A stretch of 64,000 bases of DNA, from contig JAHDLC010000007.1 of the NCBI GenBank assembly GCA_018436595.1, positions 62,001 to 126,000 on the forward strand. Reading direction: 5' to 3'. Below the pieces are notes generated by a model. The model ran no database searches, was not told where the DNA came from, and worked only from the letters and a program-made list of their open reading frames with translations. Shown piece after piece: positions 2,639 through 52,701 of this stretch. A program made the translations under genes and the position numbers. Source of the stretch: Synergistaceae bacterium. Lineage in GTDB: Bacteria > Synergistota > Synergistia > Synergistales > Aminobacteriaceae. Within the stretch, counting starts at the first letter, position 1; each line of letters begins with the position of its first letter.

Positions 2639-4408
2639 ATGAGCGAGAGTTTCGATAAGCCCCTCGGCAATGAAGGAACCGATTCAGTCAATTTTATGAT
2701 CCAGAAGACAATCAGGCTGGAGAAAGAAGCCGCACGGTGGAAACGGGAGGAGACTGCTCTCCGGGATATGGAGCGCCGGTACCTCGCTCTTTCGGAAAAC
2801 CCGGTTTTCCTTCTGGCGATTCTCTCGGGGGGAAGGGTGACGTACCTCAACGGGAGGGCAGAAGCGTTCTTCGGCTTCCCTCTCCGGGAGCGGCCAAGAT
2901 TTCTCCTGACGGACTACGTGGCGCCGGGGTATTGCGTCGAGGTTGAAAAATTGCTGGAGCAGGCCGGCGGGGATGAACTCTGGGAAAGACGGTTTTCCTT
3001 TCCTGTGCTGACGGAGGGTGGGGCGGAACGGTGGCTCGACATGGCCGTCACTCCGGTAGAGTACCGGGGAGAACCCTCCATGCTCGCCGTGGGGTATGAA
3101 ATCCCGGCGCCGTCGGAGAATGAGCCGGTGGCGGAAACGAAAATCCCGGCCGGATTCTCCTGTTCCGCCGATAATCTCCTGGCGGCCGTTACCGACAGGG
3201 ACTGTATCCTCCAGTTCATGACCGAGGGCTTCAGGAGAGAGGCGGCTCCCATGTGGAACGCTCCTCCCGAAACGGGGCTGTCCATGCTGGAACTTCTTCC
3301 CGAAGGAGACAGGGGACTTCCCTTCCGGCTCGCCGTGGAAAAAGCGCTCTCCGGAGAAGGGGCCGAGATAGGCCAGGAGGCGGGGGACAGGTTTTTTTCC
3401 ATCTCCTTCGCACCGGTTTTTTCTCCCGACGGACAGGTATCGGGCGTTTCCCTGGTGCTGTGCGAGAAGACGGGGCAGCGGGCCGCGGAGCGGAAAGTCC
3501 GGGCCGAGGAGGAAAAATTCCGCAGGCTGTTCTCCCTGGTGTCCGACCTTGGCATTATCGTAACCAGGGACGAAGGGCGGATCATCGAATGCAACCGGGC
3601 TTTTCATGAAAAAGTTTTTCCTTCCGGCGAAAGGGCTGAAGGAAAAACCCTTGAGGAATTGGGACTTCTCCCTTACGGGGCACTGAAAAACACCCTGTAT
3701 TCAGGAATCGGGGAAAAGGGTTCCGTCCGGGAGTTGAAGCAGTCCATCACGCTTCCATCCGGCGAAGACCTGCCCGTCCTTCTTTCCGCTATTCCCCTCG
3801 AGCGCGGGGGCAGGCAGGTCCTTCTCCTGTCCCTTCGGGAGACGGTCGTTCCGGCAGTCCAGGCTCCGTCGGCCGAAGCCGCCCCGGATCCGTCCGGGGA
3901 GAAGGCTCCTCAGGAGAGGAGCAGGGGTATCGACGAGCTCCTCGGTATACCCGACAGGGAGGGGTTCGGCAGGCTTTTGTCCACCGAGATGGAGAGGGCC
4001 GGCAGATACCGGGGAAGCCTTTCCGTCATCCTGATGGATATCGACGGTTTCAGGGAACTGATGGAGCAGGCGGGGGAAGATGGGGGAAAAAAGTTCCTCA
4101 GGGACTTCTTCACTGCTGTCAAAAGCCGAATCCGCCCGACTGATTTCCTCGCCCGTCTCGGCGGCGGAGAATTCGCCGTCCTGACGCCTATGAGCGGCTA
4201 CCTTGCCCACCAGATGGCTGACAAGATTCGGGACATGGTCTGTCATTCCCATTTCTTCCCGGGGCGCGGGGTCTTCTGCAGCTTCGGAGTGTGTGAATAC
4301 CGCAGGGAAATGTCCAATGACGAATTTTTGAAACGGGCGGGAATCGCCCTGAGGGAAGCGAAGAGGGCGGGAGGCAACCGGGCCGTTCTCGCACCGCCCA
4401 TCCCCTGA
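2639..4408 (+). CDS. PAS-domain protein with degenerate GGDEF (GGGEF) domain
   Basis: This 589-aa cytosolic signalling protein has a short coiled coil, two or three PAS-like regions (about residues 40-150, 180-290 and 295-400), a linker rich in Ala and Pro, and a C-terminal GGDEF fold (about 430-589; ILMDIDGFRELMEQAG is the helix-strand before the active loop). The signature reads GGGEF at residues 508-512. The third position, normally Asp or Glu and needed for metal binding and catalysis, is Gly, so cyclase activity is unlikely. The inhibitory-site motif RxxD (RPTD, 499-502) is kept at the right spacing, so the domain could still bind c-di-GMP as a receptor. The start ATG follows GGAAGGGG by eight bases. 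The deoxynucleoside kinase gene follows directly. Confidence 0.85.
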   Translation: MSESFDKPLGNEGTDSVNFMIQKTIRLEKEAARWKREETALRDMERRYLALSENPVFLLAILSGGRVTYLNGRAEAFFGFPLRERPRFLLTDYVAPGYCVEVEKLLEQAGGDELWERRFSFPVLTEGGAERWLDMAVTPVEYRGEPSMLAVGYEIPAPSENEPVAETKIPAGFSCSADNLLAAVTDRDCILQFMTEGFRREAAPMWNAPPETGLSMLELLPEGDRGLPFRLAVEKALSGEGAEIGQEAGDRFFSISFAPVFSPDGQVSGVSLVLCEKTGQRAAERKVRAEEEKFRRLFSLVSDLGIIVTRDEGRIIECNRAFHEKVFPSGERAEGKTLEELGLLPYGALKNTLYSGIGEKGSVRELKQSITLPSGEDLPVLLSAIPLERGGRQVLLLSLRETVVPAVQAPSAEAAPDPSGEKAPQERSRGIDELLGIPDREGFGRLLSTEMERAGRYRGSLSVILMDIDGFRELMEQAGEDGGKKFLRDFFTAVKSRIRPTDFLARLGGGEFAVLTPMSGYLAHQMADKIRDMVCHSHFFPGRGVFCSFGVCEYRREMSNDEFLKRAGIALREAKRAGGNRAVLAPPIP

Positions 4409-46648: not shown

Positions 46649-47017
46649 TTAAACGACCATATCGAAGAGGAAGCCGAGAATCTCGTTTCTTCTGGCTATG
46701 AGCCGCACTATTTCATCGGAAGGTATTTTGCGGATGATCTTTTCCTCGTCGTTGCTCTCCCTGACGATGACCTGCACGATGTCGGCGTCTTCCTGGACGG
46801 TGAACTGGAGGTACCGGCTGTGCATGGCGGCCTTGACCTGGAAGTTGTCGAGAACGCGCTCCAGAGTCCTGTCGCCCCGGAGGGCGCTCAGGCGGACCCG
46901 GCCGTCGGAGAAAGTACTCTGCTCGGTGTATCTCCGCTCAGGATAGCGGGGATCGAGATAGGCTCTTCGCGACCTGTCGGTTCCGTCAATGGGCAGGACA
47001 GAAAAGGCTGAAACCAT
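46649..47017 (-). CDS. flaG: FlaG family protein
   Basis: This 122-aa protein carries a FlaG domain at its C-terminus: YLQFTVQEDADIVQVIVRE, then KIIRKIPSDEIVRLIARRNEILGFLFD. FlaG proteins affect flagellar filament length and are usually near fliD or flagellin genes. Here none of those are present. The first ~60 residues are polar with many Arg and Tyr residues and do not resemble known FlaG N-termini. I start at ATG 47017, eight bases after GGAGG; an ATG 18 bases upstream overlaps that site. The small gene at 46408 follows on the same strand. Confidence 0.75.
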   Translation of the reverse strand: MVSAFSVLPIDGTDRSRRAYLDPRYPERRYTEQSTFSDGRVRLSALRGDRTLERVLDNFQVKAAMHSRYLQFTVQEDADIVQVIVRESNDEEKIIRKIPSDEIVRLIARRNEILGFLFDMVV

Positions 47018-47175
47018 GCCATCCACCTCCGTCATCCTATTCCGGTTAAAAATATACTGCCCGGATAAGAATATGTCAAACGATTCCGTTTTCTCGTTTT
47101 TCCCCCTGTTTTAAAAAAAACGGTCCCCTTCCGGGAAAGGGGGAGAGGGGAATCCTCCGCCAGAAAAATTGATTA

Positions 47176-47418: not shown

Positions 47419-48624
47419 TTGACAAATGAGCGGTACCTCTTCTCTTCCGAATCAGTGACAGAAGGTCACCCCGACAAGGTGGCGGACCAGATTTCAGACG
47501 GTGTCCTCGACGCCATCCTGAAGGACGACCCCATGGGCCGGGTGGCCTGCGAAGTGTTGTGCACCACCGGAATGGTCATGGTGGCGGGGGAGATAACGAC
47601 CCAGACCTACGTGGACATCCCGAAGATTGCCAGGGATATCGTGAAGGAGATAGGCTACACCAGGGCGAAATACGGTTTTGACGGTGATACCTGCGCCGTG
47701 ATCACCGCCATTGACGAGCAGTCCGAAGATATCAGGAGGGGGGTGGACACGGCTCTCGAGATCCGGGAACATCTCGTGTCCGAGGAAGAGATCGCCAGGA
47801 TCGGCGCGGGAGACCAGGGAATGATGACCGGGTTTGCCTGCAATGAAACCCAGGAGTATCTTCCCATGCCCATAGCCCTTGCCCACCGCCTCGCCCGCAG
47901 ACTGGCCGAGGTCAGGAAGAACGGGACGATCCCCTATCTCCGCCCCGACGGAAAAACCCAGGTGACCCTGGAGTACGTTGACGGCAAAGCTGTTCACGCG
48001 GATACCATCGTCGTCTCCGCCCAGCACCATCCGGAAGCGACGAACGAGGAGATCCGGGCGGATATCGTGGAGCACGTGATCAGCCCTATCGTTCCGAAAG
48101 AACTGATGAACGGCAGGACCAGGATCCTGGTGAACCCCTCGGGGCGCTTCGAAAAGGGAGGCCCCATGGCGGACACGGGGCTCACCGGCAGGAAAATCAT
48201 TGTCGATACCTACGGAAGCTGGGTCGCCCACGGGGGCGGCGCTTTCTCCGGCAAGGACCCCACCAAGGTGGACCGTTCGGGTGCCTACATGGCCCGCTAC
48301 GTGGCCAAGAACGTGGTTGCTGCGGGACTGGCCGACCAGTGCCTTGTACAGGTGGCTTACGCCATAGGTGTGGCGGAGCCGGTTTCCGTCATGGTGGACA
48401 CCTGGGGAACCGGCAAGGGGATTACCGATGAAGAAATCACGACCCTCGTCAGGAAACATTTCGATTTTCGCCCCGCAGCCATCATCCGTGACCTCGAACT
48501 GAGAAAACCCCAGTACAGAAGGCTGGCAGCCTATGGCCACATGGGCCGGATCGACCTGGATCCCCTTCCCGCGTGGGAAAGGACGGACAAGGCGGAGATT
48601 CTTTCCGCTGCGAAAAAGAAGTGA
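47419..48624 (+). CDS. metK: S-adenosylmethionine synthetase
   Basis: MetK makes S-adenosylmethionine from methionine and ATP. The protein (401 aa) has [20 protein letters not shown], the ATP loop [12 protein letters not shown], and [23 protein letters not shown]. The start is TTG 47419, eight bases after AAGGAGG; the riboswitch terminator ends just before. The SAM-I riboswitch gives feedback control. A perfect terminator follows the gene. Confidence 0.96.
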
Positions 48625-48640
48625 CGGAAAACATGAGCGT

Positions 48641-48666
48641 AAGGGGCCCTGAGGGGCCCCTTTTTA
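48641..48666 (+). terminator. Terminator after metK
   Basis: AAGGGGCCC (48641-48649) and GGGCCCCTT (48654-48662) form a perfect stem with a TGAG loop followed by TTTATTT. Confidence 0.9.
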
Positions 48667-48729: not shown

Positions 48730-49167
48730 ATGCGGATGGAAACGAGGGGAACCCTGCTGGAAATCCGCTTCAGCACTATTGAACAGTTTGCCCCGTACAG
48801 GGAGCGGATCCTTTCCGTTTTTCGAAATCTCGGCGAACGGGAGGGCATGCTTTTCTTCGTCGCACTCAACGAAGCGGTGAACAATGCCCTGATCCATGGA
48901 GGCACGGGGAGGGAGGGACGGGCTGTGGAGCTTTCCGTCCGGGATGAAGGTCCCAGGATCTGTGCCGCCATCCGAAACTGCGGCGGCTGTTTTTCCCACG
49001 ACATGAAGCCTGACCCGGAGGTTTTTGACAATGTCTTTCGGGAATCCGGAAGGGGAGTGCAGATTATTCTTCACATCGCCGACGAATGCAGCATCGGGGA
49101 ATCCGGCCGGCTGGTCAGCCTGTGCATGCACAAGCCCGGGGCGGCAGCCGGCGGTCAGGGAGAGTGA
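48730..49167 (+). CDS. RsbW-type anti-sigma / HATPase protein
   Basis: This 145-aa protein is a stand-alone GHKL ATPase of the RsbW/SpoIIAB kind, usually a serine kinase that binds a sigma factor or an anti-anti-sigma factor. The N box is NEAVNNALIHGG and the ATP-lid region is ESGRGVQIILHIADE. ATG 48730 follows GGGAG closely; ATG 48736 is an alternative. It lies seven bases before a PAS-SpoIIE phosphatase gene, so the two form the kinase/phosphatase pair of a partner-switching pathway. No STAS-domain protein or sigma factor is in the window. Confidence 0.82.
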   Translation: MRMETRGTLLEIRFSTIEQFAPYRERILSVFRNLGEREGMLFFVALNEAVNNALIHGGTGREGRAVELSVRDEGPRICAAIRNCGGCFSHDMKPDPEVFDNVFRESGRGVQIILHIADECSIGESGRLVSLCMHKPGAAAGGQGE

Positions 49168-49174
49168 ACCGGTC

Positions 49175-50233
49175 ATGAAAGAGTGCGGAGGAGCTCCGCT
49201 GTCCATGGAGATGGCCGGTTTCAGGTTTGACGGTATGAACCTCCTTGATATGTTCTGTGAGGCTCTTGTCATTTGGGAAGCTTCCACGGGAGCGGTTCTG
49301 TATACTAATGAATCGGCGAGGGCCCTGTACGGTTATTCCTGCGGAGAGGCTTCCGCCCTGTCCATAGACGACATTTTTCCCGACTGGGAAGGGGGGCTCC
49401 GGAAAGGTTCCTTTTCGATCCGGACGGCCACCCACAGGAAGAAGGACGGCATGTTCTTTCCGGTCCAGCTCACCTGCAGGTCCCTCCCGGGAAATGCAGG
49501 GGATGTGATGATGATGGTTGCCTCGGATGTCTCGCCGGAAAACCTCATCCACGACAGCGTCTCCCTCGCGGCATCGATCCAGAGGGGATTTCTGCCCGGG
49601 GACCTTGAAGGTGACGGACGGATCGAGGTCAGGGGCATTTACCGTCCCATGCATCTCATCAGCGGCGATATGTTCGGCTATCAATGGGACGAACGGCAGG
49701 GAATCCTCAGCGGGTATCTCTTCGATGTCATGGGGCACGGCGTTCCCGCCGCCCTCCGGACATCGGCCATCATGGTCCTCTTCCACCAGGCCTTCGAGGA
49801 TGACGCCCGAGCGGGGGCTTCTCTTGAAGAAAAACTGGCCTGGGTGAACTCCATGGCGGAGGGTGGCATTCTCTCCGATTCTTTTGCTGCGGCGGTCTGC
49901 TTCCGGCTGAACGTTCCCGAAAAAAAGCTGGACTACTGCGCCGCCGGAATCAACGGTTTCCTGTACGGCAGCGGAGCCGGACTGAAAAAGATCATTACTC
50001 CCGGATCGCTGCTGGGGATTTCCGGGACTGCCCTTTTCGGTTCGGGCAGCCTCCCCGTGGAACCTGGCGAGTACTTTCTTTTCCTGAGCGACGGATTCCT
50101 TGACCAGCAGAGTGTGCGGGAAAACGAGCATCTTTCCTTTTCCGGGGCCTACGACCGCCTGTTCCAGGTCGGCTACACGGGGGCGGCCCGGGACGACCAG
50201 TCAGCACTCTGCGTGCTGTTCAGAGACAGCTAA
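49175..50233 (+). CDS. PAS domain plus SpoIIE-type (PP2C) serine phosphatase
   Basis: This 352-aa cytosolic protein has an N-terminal PAS domain (about 15-125; EALVIWEASTGAVLYTNESARALYG) and a C-terminal SpoIIE/RsbU-type PP2C domain (about 130-352). Metal-site regions are visible as LISGDMFGYQWD, YLFDVMGHGVPAALRTSAI and FLSDGFLD near the end. It should dephosphorylate an anti-anti-sigma partner when its PAS domain senses a signal. The ATG is seven bases after the RsbW-type stop. The end overlaps the converging histidine kinase gene by four bases. Confidence 0.88.
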   Translation: MKECGGAPLSMEMAGFRFDGMNLLDMFCEALVIWEASTGAVLYTNESARALYGYSCGEASALSIDDIFPDWEGGLRKGSFSIRTATHRKKDGMFFPVQLTCRSLPGNAGDVMMMVASDVSPENLIHDSVSLAASIQRGFLPGDLEGDGRIEVRGIYRPMHLISGDMFGYQWDERQGILSGYLFDVMGHGVPAALRTSAIMVLFHQAFEDDARAGASLEEKLAWVNSMAEGGILSDSFAAAVCFRLNVPEKKLDYCAAGINGFLYGSGAGLKKIITPGSLLGISGTALFGSGSLPVEPGEYFLFLSDGFLDQQSVRENEHLSFSGAYDRLFQVGYTGAARDDQSALCVLFRDS

Positions 50234-51480
50234 GCAAGGTTTCTGGAGATGACGGAGCGGAGCACCTCGGCCTCGACCGGCTTGGCGATGTAGTCATCCA
50301 TTCCCGCGTCGAGGCACATCCGCCGGTCTCCCTCCATGGCGTAGGCCGTCATGGCAATGATGACGGATCTGAGGCCCCGGACGGCCTCTTTCGCCCTGGC
50401 CAGCCGCGTGCATTCGAGGCCGTCCATGTCCGGCATCTGGACATCCATGAAGACAAGGTCGTACTGTTTTTCATCCATGAGCTGCAGCGCCTCGGAGCCG
50501 CTTTCCGCCAGGAACACATCCCAGCCGGGACCGCCCATTTTCCTGAGAATGGTCCTGGCGAGACTCCGGTTGAACCTGTTGTCATCCACCACCAGGATGG
50601 AAATCTTCTCCGGGAGGGGGGCTCCGTCAGCAGGAAGTTCCTTTCCGGAATCTCCGTCTTTTTTCCTGAATGTCTCCCCGGGAGGAATCTTTCCGAGGGA
50701 AGCCCGGAAATGAATGACCCGGTCGCCGGAGCCGGACAACTCCGTCCAAAGCATTCCGCCCATGGCTTCAGCTATCCCGCGGGCAATGAGAAGCCCCATG
50801 CCGGCCCCCTGGAAGGATGCGGAAAAATCCTTCCGTTCCATGTTCGAATAGTCCGTGTCCCGCCTTTTCTCCGTCCCGGCCCCTCCGCCGGGATGGCCGG
50901 CGGTGATGTGAAGGATTACTGCCGATTCTTTTTCCTCCCCGGAGAATACCCTGACCGAAATTGTTCCTTTGGGTGTAAAGGCGATGGCGTTGGTCACCAT
51001 GTTCCTGAGGATCTGTCCCAGCCGCGCGCTGTCCCCCAGGAGCAACTCCGGAACGGCGGGGTCAACGTGCAGTTCCAGGGAAAGCCGCCGTTCCTGGACC
51101 GAAACGGCCAGGGGCCGAACCGTCCTGGAACAGGTTGACCGGACGGGAAAGAGATCGCTCTGCAGCGTGAGCCTTCCCGTTTCAATGAGGGAAAGGTCGA
51201 GCAGTTCCTCAACGAGGCGGTGCAGATCCCTCGCCGATGTGGAGAGCATTTCGACGAATTTTTGCTGCTCCAGGTCCAGCCTGGTCCCCTGGAAGAGGTT
51301 TGCCACGCCGATGATGGAGTTGAGAGGTGTGCGTATTTCGTGGCTGAGGTTGGCGATGAAGGCGCTCTTGTTCCTGCTGCTCTCTTCGGCCCTGCGGAGG
51401 GCCTCCTCGAGTTCCGTGATCCGCCGGGCCTGATCTTCCTGCGAAGTTCCCTCCCGTGCCTGTCCTGAAATGGACGTCAT
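50230..51480 (-). CDS. Hybrid histidine kinase with altered ATP-binding box
   Basis: This 416-aa soluble protein has a short coiled coil, HisKA (SHEIRTPLNSIIGVANLF), a HATPase domain and a C-terminal receiver. The N box (RNMVTNAIAF) and a G2-like segment (GAGMGLLIARGIAEAMGG) are present. The G1 position, normally DxGxG, reads HITAGHPGGGAG and lacks the Asp that contacts adenine, so kinase activity is doubtful. The receiver looks functional: VVDDN, phospho-acceptor Asp in VFMDVQMPDMDG, Thr in MTAYAM and Lys in AKPVE. There is no transmembrane or sensor domain. It converges on the SpoIIE gene with a four-base overlap. Confidence 0.85.
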   Translation of the reverse strand: MTSISGQAREGTSQEDQARRITELEEALRRAEESSRNKSAFIANLSHEIRTPLNSIIGVANLFQGTRLDLEQQKFVEMLSTSARDLHRLVEELLDLSLIETGRLTLQSDLFPVRSTCSRTVRPLAVSVQERRLSLELHVDPAVPELLLGDSARLGQILRNMVTNAIAFTPKGTISVRVFSGEEKESAVILHITAGHPGGGAGTEKRRDTDYSNMERKDFSASFQGAGMGLLIARGIAEAMGGMLWTELSGSGDRVIHFRASLGKIPPGETFRKKDGDSGKELPADGAPLPEKISILVVDDNRFNRSLARTILRKMGGPGWDVFLAESGSEALQLMDEKQYDLVFMDVQMPDMDGLECTRLARAKEAVRGLRSVIIAMTAYAMEGDRRMCLDAGMDDYIAKPVEAEVLRSVISRNLA

Positions 51481-51546: not shown

Positions 51547-51575
51547 AAACAAAGGGGGGAAGAGGATGTCCCCCC
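51547..51575 (-). terminator. Terminator after the beta-propeller gene
   Basis: On the minus strand GGGGGGA (51569-51575) and TCCCCCC (51554-51560) form a stem with an eight-base loop followed by TTTGTTTT. It separates the PQQ-type gene from the histidine kinase gene on the same strand. Confidence 0.65.
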
Positions 51576-51601
51576 TCCCCCCGGTTCTCCGGAAAGGTTG
51601 T

Positions 51602-52654
51602 TTACTCGAAGGCGTAGACTTTTCCGTCGAAGCTTCCGAAGTAGAGCACTCCGTCCACAAAGAGGGGGTCCGACATGATCTCCCGGCCGGACTCGAACTT
51701 CCATGCCTCCCTGCCCGTCGCCGCATCCAGGGCGAAGAGGGTGCCGCCGTCGCTGCCGAAAAATACCATGCCCTCGTGATAGGCCGGATTGGAGTGGATC
51801 CCCCCCGGAACGGGAAACTCCCAGAGAAGCTTCCCCGAGGCGCCTTCCAGGGCCACCATCTTTCCGTTCACCGTCCCGAAGAAAATCCGGCCCCCGGCGA
51901 CCAGGGGCCTGGTGGTGATCGCTTCTCCGGCGCTGTATTTCCACTGGGGGATCACACCCTGTATTTTGACCGACTGCAGGGTTCCGTCCCAGCTTCCGAA
52001 GAGGACCAACCCGTCCGCCGCCGTCGGGGTGCTGATGGGGCCGCCGCTTCCGCCGCCCCACATCTTTTTCCCTGTCCCGGCATCAAGGGCGTGGAAGAGC
52101 CCTTCGTATGCCCCGACGAACAGGAGACTGCCGCTGAGGACCGGTGAAGAGCGAAGCTCACGGCCCGTGTCGAAGGTCCAGGCAAGGTTTCCCGACGGGG
52201 CGTCAAGGGCGTAGACCTTGCCGTCGGCGCTGTTGAAGTAGACCCGTCCGTTTCCCGCCGCCGGGGATGACCAGATGGCGCCGGGGGTGTACTTTTCCCG
52301 GGGGGTGAAATGCCAGACCTCCCGTCCCGTTGCCCCGTCGACGGCGAAGAGGGATCCGTCGGCTCCTCCCGTAAACAGTGTGGAGCCGAGAAGAGCGGGT
52401 GTCCCATTGATGGTGCCGCCCGCAGAAAAAGTCCATCGGAGCTCCCCTGTGGCCTTGTCGAGAGCGACAAGGCGCCCTTCGCTGTCACCGATGACGATTG
52501 TGCCGTTCACCGCGGCTGGGGATCCAGTGACGCTGTTTCCGGCGTCGTAGCTCCATTTCTGAACGCCCCGCCAGGCCGATGCCTCGAAGGGGGCCGATAG
52601 GGCAAGCAATGCGGCCGCCAGAAGGAACAGCGGAATTGATCGATGCAATTTCAT
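51602..52654 (-). CDS. PQQ-type beta-propeller repeat protein (exported)
   Basis: This 350-aa exported protein has a signal peptide (LFLLAAALLALSAPFEASA) and about seven propeller blades of the PQQ/BamB kind. The blades repeat a pattern such as VYALDAPSGNLAWTFDTG, LFALDAATGREAWKFESG and VVFGSxDG-like turns. No dehydrogenase or PQQ-binding residues are evident, so a scaffold role like BamB is possible. The start is the second ATG (52654), nine bases after GAGG. A promoter with a perfect TATAAT precedes it. Confidence 0.82.
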   Translation of the reverse strand: MKLHRSIPLFLLAAALLALSAPFEASAWRGVQKWSYDAGNSVTGSPAAVNGTIVIGDSEGRLVALDKATGELRWTFSAGGTINGTPALLGSTLFTGGADGSLFAVDGATGREVWHFTPREKYTPGAIWSSPAAGNGRVYFNSADGKVYALDAPSGNLAWTFDTGRELRSSPVLSGSLLFVGAYEGLFHALDAGTGKKMWGGGSGGPISTPTAADGLVLFGSWDGTLQSVKIQGVIPQWKYSAGEAITTRPLVAGGRIFFGTVNGKMVALEGASGKLLWEFPVPGGIHSNPAYHEGMVFFGSDGGTLFALDAATGREAWKFESGREIMSDPLFVDGVLYFGSFDGKVYAFE

Positions 52655-52701
52655 TTTCATCCACCTCTTTTCACTTGTTTTTCAGTTTTGCAGCCGGATT
52701 A

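Follow-up and report, generated by a model that had tools for sequence, protein, structure and literature searches.

A partner-switch gene pair and a hybrid kinase with a degenerate ATP site are inherited as a block in Synergistota

Introduction

Why should a hybrid histidine kinase with a broken ATP-binding box lie tail to tail with the kinase and phosphatase genes of a partner switch when no STAS protein is encoded nearby? The question arises from a 64,000-nucleotide stretch of Synergistaceae DNA (the window), which spans positions 62001-126000 of contig 13 in a 3.2 Mb genome of 50 contigs, labelled G000 here. Three genes concern us: W, encoding an RsbW/SpoIIAB-like GHKL protein; E, encoding a PAS-SpoIIE phosphatase; and H, encoding a protein with HisKA, HATPase_c and receiver (REC) domains. 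The trio sits between metK, which ends at 48624, and a gene for a BamB-like beta-propeller protein (51602-52660, minus strand). W and E are 7 bases apart, and E and H converge with a four-base overlap at 50230-50233.

A preliminary description, made from the letters of the window, had recorded this coupling and convergence, the lost Asp in the G1 box of H, its intact His box and receiver, and the local absence of STAS and sigma factor genes. Profile matches and comparisons with relatives uphold the gene assignments, the arrangement and the motif readings. The window holds no STAS match, the genome's two being on contigs 20 and 32. As for sigma factors, the 18 window proteins that we scanned with Pfam gave no match, which covers the earlier statement in part. 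Three further points emerged that the preliminary description did not contain: a G1 change in W, a candidate STAS partner, and replacement of the phospho-acceptor His in one H orthologue. Here we report that W, E and H are inherited as one block, that H looks like a conserved pseudokinase, and that the likely STAS partner is encoded elsewhere in the genome.

Results

The three genes come and go together

We searched 185 genomes of the phylum for E and recovered matches at 1e-15 or better in ten. Eight are clear orthologues (1.7e-113 or better; G000, G001, G002, G011, G020, G026, G034 and G060), and the other two, in G039 and G056, are distant (near 1e-33), the G039 protein being a REC-SpoIIE. 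W and H accompany E in all eight genomes, with H tail to tail with E throughout, which is the co-occurrence in relatives that the preliminary description's proposed cross-talk between H and the switch would predict. The E-H junction varies, from the four-base overlap shared by G000, G001 and G002 and a 13-base overlap in G020 to gaps of 3-26 bases in G011, G026, G034 and G060. W, PAS and SpoIIE form a single open frame in three of the eight (G011, G020 and G026). On the flanks, metK adjoins the trio in seven genomes (a stretch of N interrupts it in the G002 assembly, and the G026 contig begins within W), and the BamB-like gene adjoins it in all eight (partial in G026).

Sites without the trio were found at the same position. 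We checked metK in 14 further family members and obtained a match in 11. In three of these (G003, G009 and G007), W, E and H are all absent and the convergent BamB-like gene comes directly after metK, at a distance of 68, 148 and 54 bases, respectively; G003 belongs to the same genus as the window's genome. No BamB-like gene was seen downstream of metK in the other eight, over stretches of about 0.9-7 kb that include the short contigs of G012 and G017. A partial trio occurred at none of the eight filled and three empty sites.

Searching 81 family genomes for H returned nine orthologues (50-100% identity), with the next match at 41% or less. Their holders are the eight trio genomes plus G004, where H lies at a contig end. 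Neither G004 nor G059 gave an E match. We dropped both as candidate losers of W and E since metK was also not found in these assemblies; for the same reason, their trio locus is probably unassembled.

H looks like a conserved pseudokinase

In the window copy of H, the His box (SHEIRTP) and the receiver (DD...VFMD...AKP) are both intact, and the G1 box is HPGGG, compared with DTGIG in the aligned kinases. The G1 Asp is gone from all nine orthologues, with His in its place in eight. The N-box Asn is kept in the window copy and has become Thr or Cys in five of the nine (G034, G060, G011, G026 and G020). H thus lacks the combination of G1 Asp and N-box Asn that marks an active hybrid kinase. It has instead the RetS-type combination of a degenerate HATPase domain with HExxT and the receiver Asp retained: the HExxT Glu and Thr, the receiver's acidic pair and its phospho-Asp are present in all nine. 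G004 (L115:1-1164), a single metagenome-assembled genome in which a sequencing error is possible, has Tyr in place of the phospho-acceptor His. By motif, then, H looks like a conserved pseudokinase that has probably lost autophosphorylation, in keeping with the earlier suggestion of a phosphatase-biased or receiver-output protein.

This loss stands out within the genome. Among 26 HATPase_c loci, 25 have Asp at this position (23 match DxGxG, and two, SDNAG and LDNGVAF, were assigned by eye), and H is the sole exception. Adding W, the one HATPase_c_2 match outside this list, brings the set to 27 GHKL loci by the two Pfam profiles; the only ones without the Asp are the neighbours W and H.

Conservation differs between the domains of H. 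Mean identity over 36 pairs is 0.79 for the dimerization and histidine phosphotransfer (DHp) domain, 0.68 for the receiver and 0.49 for the catalytic and ATP-binding (CA) domain. For the distant pair G000-G034, CA and DHp identities are 0.45 and 0.83 in H compared with 0.54 and 0.63 in a control hybrid kinase, the orthology of the G034 control being assumed; this is the only pair for which H is set apart from controls. We computed ratios of nonsynonymous to synonymous substitution rates (dN/dS) on G000, G001 and G002. Values over whole genes and domains were 0.09-0.27, and H itself gave 0.13-0.21 over the whole gene, 0.01-0.03 in DHp and 0.11-0.18 in CA, which argues that H is not a pseudogene.

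A structure model of H (mean predicted local distance difference test score, pLDDT, 76.6; poorly predicted at residues 199-224 of the ATP lid) matched ShkA best in the PDB, then GacS and RetS. DivL, which we take to have Tyr in place of the His, ranked 26. Pfam found no sensor domain in H, and NCBIfam matches, BarA among them, were all far below cut-off.

E keeps its putative metal-binding residues and W lacks the G1 Asp

E has the features of a PP2C-type SpoIIE phosphatase: along with its SpoIIE profile match, Asp165, Asp184, Asp306, Asp340 and Asp341, which we take to be metal-binding residues, are invariant in the seven of eight members aligned (all except G060). Its PAS_9 match, at 24.5 bits, is under the Pfam cut-off of 27, and PAS_9 matches six of the seven aligned members, the window's included. 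In NCBIfam, E matched SiaA, far below cut-off.

W is more ambiguous. Its G1 box reads RNCGGCF compared with RDEGVGI and ADEGDSF in SpoIIAB and RsbW, and across the eight trio genomes the Asp position holds Asn in two and Ser in six. Outgroup homologues of W keep Asp in G039, G056, G128 and G107 and have Cys in G046, G175 and G176. All 14 aligned W proteins, a set without G107, have Glu48 and Asn52 in the N-box and Gly-Arg-Gly in the G2 box. We assume that the Glu is the catalytic base and the Asn a Mg ligand. This role of the Asn is also given in PMC3610818. The W model (mean pLDDT 84) has the SpoIIAB/RsbW fold, and UsfX-RsfB and SigF-anti-sigma complexes are among its structure matches; searched alone against the PDB with phmmer, W reached a best E of 0.12, and NCBIfam held no family for it. 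Because the G1 Asp is missing, we class W as a divergent RsbW/SpoIIAB relative and not as a proven kinase. The kept N-box and G2 residues, together with the fold, favour residual function, and W probably retains some ATP-dependent chemistry. In a 20-row W tree (contig-30 protein omitted; N-terminal extensions of G039, G056 and G011 trimmed), 8 of 17 inner branches are open, and two separate losses of the G1 Asp in the W lineage are likely rather than established.

A likely STAS partner lies beside a chemoreceptor gene

The two STAS proteins of the genome have different surroundings. The one on contig 20 adjoins a canonical RsbW, and a SpoIIE gene lies 3 kb away. The one on contig 32 (P0004, 102 aa) scores above the TIGR00377 (anti-sigma factor antagonist) cut-off and lies directly 3' of a gene for a 723-aa methyl-accepting chemotaxis protein (MCP), facing an HD_5-domain gene (L034:6169-9843). 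There is no HATPase_c_2 match on contig 32, and we refer to this protein as the orphan STAS. G001, G002 and G060 (contig 20) have the same MCP-STAS pair. Diverged second copies of the orphan STAS occur in G060 (L121:7317-9973, again directly after an MCP gene) and G034 (L122:6396-6842).

Close orthologues of the orphan STAS (63-88% identity) are found, among the 185 genomes, only in G000, G001, G002, G004, G011, G020, G034, G059 and G060. Seven of the eight E genomes have one, the exception being G026, and the three empty-site genomes have none; the remaining two holders, G004 and G059, are assemblies that gave no metK match. In G002, G011 and G020, the orphan type is the single STAS match and there is no match to canonical RsbW.

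Gene order in the outgroup links this STAS to W. Homologues at E <= 2e-14 occur in seven outgroup genomes, and in all seven a W homologue lies beside the STAS gene or one gene away. The order is W-MCP-STAS in G039, G056 and G128 and W-STAS in G046, G175 and G176. In G107 (L120:4685-7388), an operon-like row reads STAS, REC, then GAF-SpoIIE-HATPase-STAS, placing a whole partner switch in one polypeptide beside a single receiver. In G176 a PAS-SpoIIE gene lies about 4 kb from the W-STAS pair, and in G175 an E-like gene does so. The phosphorylatable Ser (motif DS[SAT]G) is present at all 15 aligned STAS loci (G060 contig-32 copy and the G004 and G059 copies not included). Of the two STAS matches that a genome-wide search, suggested earlier, has now yielded, the orphan is thus the likely partner of W on the strength of these gene orders and distributions.

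We considered other proteins for the switch. The contig-20 STAS was rejected as the likelier partner on account of its own adjoining RsbW and nearby SpoIIE gene. A 145-aa GHKL gene on contig 30 (L036:5023-6348) and a SpoIIE gene on contig 32 (L035:5185-8087) were set aside as switch parts because they adjoin Fe-S/hydrogenase-like genes. We presume these neighbours to be hydrogenase-like from their sequences, with no profile match. The contig-30 type of GHKL gene recurs in G001, G002, G011, G020 and G026.

Features of the locus

Coordinates are collected in Table 1. W has an alternative ATG start at 48736. Terminator-like hairpins follow metK and the BamB-like gene, and for this reason the W-E unit and the H unit may each be self-contained; the hairpins are consensus matches only, and 16 such sites occur in the region against 4.1 expected. 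Elsewhere in the window, a FlaG-like gene stands alone at 46649-47035, between a ribonucleotide-reductase-like gene and metK, and two GGDEF proteins, one with PAS domains, are encoded at 669-1895 and 2639-4408, about 45 kb from the trio.

Table 1 Features of the W-E-H locus in window coordinates
Feature	Position	Strand	Evidence or remark
Terminator-like hairpin, 3' of metK and 5' of W-E	48641..48662	+	9 pairs, T tail; consensus match only
W, RsbW/SpoIIAB-like GHKL protein, 145 aa	48730..49167	+	HATPase_c_2 49.3 bits; model matches SpoIIAB 1th8, E 1.1e-6
W Asn83 codon, G1 Asp position (RNCGGCF)	48976..48978	+	Asn or Ser in 8/8 trio genomes
E, PAS-SpoIIE (PP2C-type) phosphatase, 352 aa	49175..50233	+	SpoIIE 67.5 bits
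H, HisKA-HATPase_c-receiver protein, 416 aa	50230..51480	-	HisKA 65.6, HATPase_c 48.4, Response_reg 92.1 bits
H receiver phospho-acceptor Asp346 codon	50443..50445	-	Invariant in 9/9
H His196 codon, G1 Asp position (HPGGG vs DTGIG)	50893..50895	-	His in 8/9
H phospho-acceptor His47 codon (SHEIRTP)	51340..51342	-	His in 8/9, Tyr in G004
Terminator-like hairpin, 3' of BamB-like gene and upstream of H	51554..51582	-	13 pairs; consensus match only

Discussion

A proposed dispersed partner switch tuned by a probable pseudokinase

We lean, with limited confidence, towards a partner switch whose parts are dispersed in the genome (W, E and the orphan STAS) and which is tuned by H acting as a RetS-like pseudo-hybrid kinase. 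W would bind the orphan STAS and probably phosphorylate its Ser; E, signalled through its PAS domain, would remove that phosphate; and the state of the STAS protein would set an output possibly linked to chemoreceptors or motility. H, predicted to be unable to autophosphorylate, would either have phosphate passed to its receiver by other hybrid kinases or strip it through HExxT, and in this way may report their activity to the switch, presumably by acting on W or E. H would then supply in trans the receiver that HsbR, SypE and RsfR carry fused to a phosphatase. That H may be such a receiver is suggested by these three phosphatases, the outgroup REC-SpoIIE protein of G039 and the STAS-REC operon of G107. 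The tie to chemosensing, whether as input or as shared regulon, is suggested by the recurrent MCP gene beside the STAS gene and is the weakest step. For the cross-talk proposed earlier, what supports it is inheritance as a block; the contact between H and the switch is something we infer.

A bolder version, which we advance tentatively, gives weight to the loss of the G1 Asp from both GHKL modules. W would phosphorylate, or merely read, the STAS protein with a rebuilt pocket, and the dead H would be a receiver in trans, passing the phosphate of other kinases into a Ser switch whose STAS protein is co-expressed with a chemoreceptor.

Several observations weigh against the dispersed switch. E orthologues are confined to 3 of 62 genera, so the co-occurrence counts are not independent. 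G026, in an assembly that is 94% complete, has the trio and no orphan STAS, a misfit in one of eight genomes, and its only STAS adjoins a canonical RsbW; the family genomes, moreover, show no linkage between the STAS locus and the trio. Kinase activity of W is uncertain because the G1 Asp is absent. Among G000, G001 and G002, the CA domain of H is about as conserved (0.81-0.86) as in three sets of control kinases (0.83-0.95), and this, together with the purifying selection on it, argues that the lobe retains some role. Finally, H could be co-inherited with W and E for an unrelated reason.

Relation to known systems

The available text on RetS (PMC5992135) describes a degenerate HATPase domain, HExxT phosphatase activity and a receiver that serves as phosphate sink. 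H shares the degenerate HATPase domain, a HisKA domain with HExxT and the receiver, and its DHp-CA part matches RetS structures 6dk7 and 7n0e; it differs in having a single receiver and no Pfam-detected sensor domain, and in being inherited with a partner switch. This likeness is drawn from domain traits and not from RetS's own G1 residue, the position at which eight of the nine H proteins have His.

In Vibrio fischeri SypE, as far as the accessible part of PMC3610818 describes it, an RsbW-like kinase, a receiver and a PP2C domain follow one another, and the protein acts on the lone STAS protein SypA. The W-PAS-E fusions of three relatives likewise have an N-terminal kinase domain and a C-terminal PP2C domain in one chain. 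The middle position, however, is taken by PAS and not REC, the receiver is on the separate H, W lacks the G1 Asp, and W and E are separate genes in five of eight genomes. HsbR/HsbA of Pseudomonas aeruginosa and CrsR/CrsA also pair PP2C and GHKL domains to control a STAS protein, and hybrid kinases feed the receiver that governs them (PMC6482189). Whereas the HsbR receiver is in cis and fed via HptB, the receiver here is on a pseudokinase. For RsfS/RsfR with RsfB in Mycobacterium smegmatis, PMC10950880 reports neighbouring histidine kinase and PP2C genes that control a STAS antagonist, an arrangement resembling H beside E. RsfS, according to the same paper, is membrane-associated and active as a kinase, with the receiver located on RsfR, whereas H has a degenerate ATP lobe and carries the receiver itself. 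W, for its part, shares the fold, N-box and G2 box of SpoIIAB and RsbW and departs from them at the G1 Asp.

Alternative explanations

A serious alternative, though one we consider less than probable, is that W is a pseudokinase and does no more than bind or sequester the STAS protein, like mycobacterial RsbW1 or RsbW3, with another GHKL protein phosphorylating it and E reversing the reaction. The replaced Asp in all eight W proteins and the Cys of three outgroup homologues are consistent with this, as are the UsfX-RsfB and SigF-anti-sigma matches of the model. M. smegmatis offers a precedent: it has RsbW homologues that lack kinase activity, and the kinase, RsbW2, is a separate protein (PMC7693655). 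Opposing it are the invariant N-box and G2 residues of W and the gene content of G002, G011 and G020: besides giving no match to canonical RsbW, these genomes contain, as other GHKL proteins under 200 aa that pass the cut-off, only the 145- to 152-aa kind with Fe-S neighbours, and so have no obvious other STAS kinase.

It is possible, but rather unlikely, that H has nothing to do with W and E and is a RetS-like brake on other hybrid kinases that happens to be lodged at the same site. RetS targets GacS and not a partner switch, going by the available part of PMC5992135; the genome encodes several other hybrid kinases, and H may form its own terminator-bounded unit. The trio is nevertheless complete in all eight genomes and wholly absent from the three empty sites, H stays tail to tail with E although the overlap or gap varies, and outgroup receivers occur in or with SpoIIE and STAS proteins.

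We doubt that the contig-20 STAS, in place of the orphan, serves W and E. In its favour, the window's genome encodes it, and proteins of this kind adjoin canonical RsbW in G001, G026, G034 and G060 and are the only STAS found in G026. This protein nonetheless lies beside a canonical RsbW of its own and near a SpoIIE gene, and no STAS of its kind was found in G002, G011 and G020, each of which has a single STAS of the orphan type. That H is a decaying, functionless gene, as the lost G1 Asp, the N-box Asn missing from five orthologues and the His missing from G004 might suggest, is very improbable and largely refuted by the low dN/dS of the whole gene and of DHp, the frame that is open in all nine (ended by the contig end in G004) and the receiver Asp residues kept in all nine.

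Implications

Each part of this system is of a known kind, and kinase-less RsbW homologues have already been described (PMC7693655). No pseudo-hybrid kinase co-inherited in one block with a partner switch was found in the open-licence literature, judged by titles and the beginnings of abstracts among the matches listed, and nothing relevant on G1-box mutants appeared among the matches listed. If the dispersed switch is real, it would bring together in one inherited unit RetS-like pseudokinases and SpoIIE/RsbW partner switches, which are usually treated as separate subjects. The eight genomes and three empty sites would form a natural set for learning how a dead kinase can steer a pathway. The seemingly missing STAS partner would be traceable through outgroup gene order, and the partner switch would be placed beside chemoreceptor genes in this phylum.

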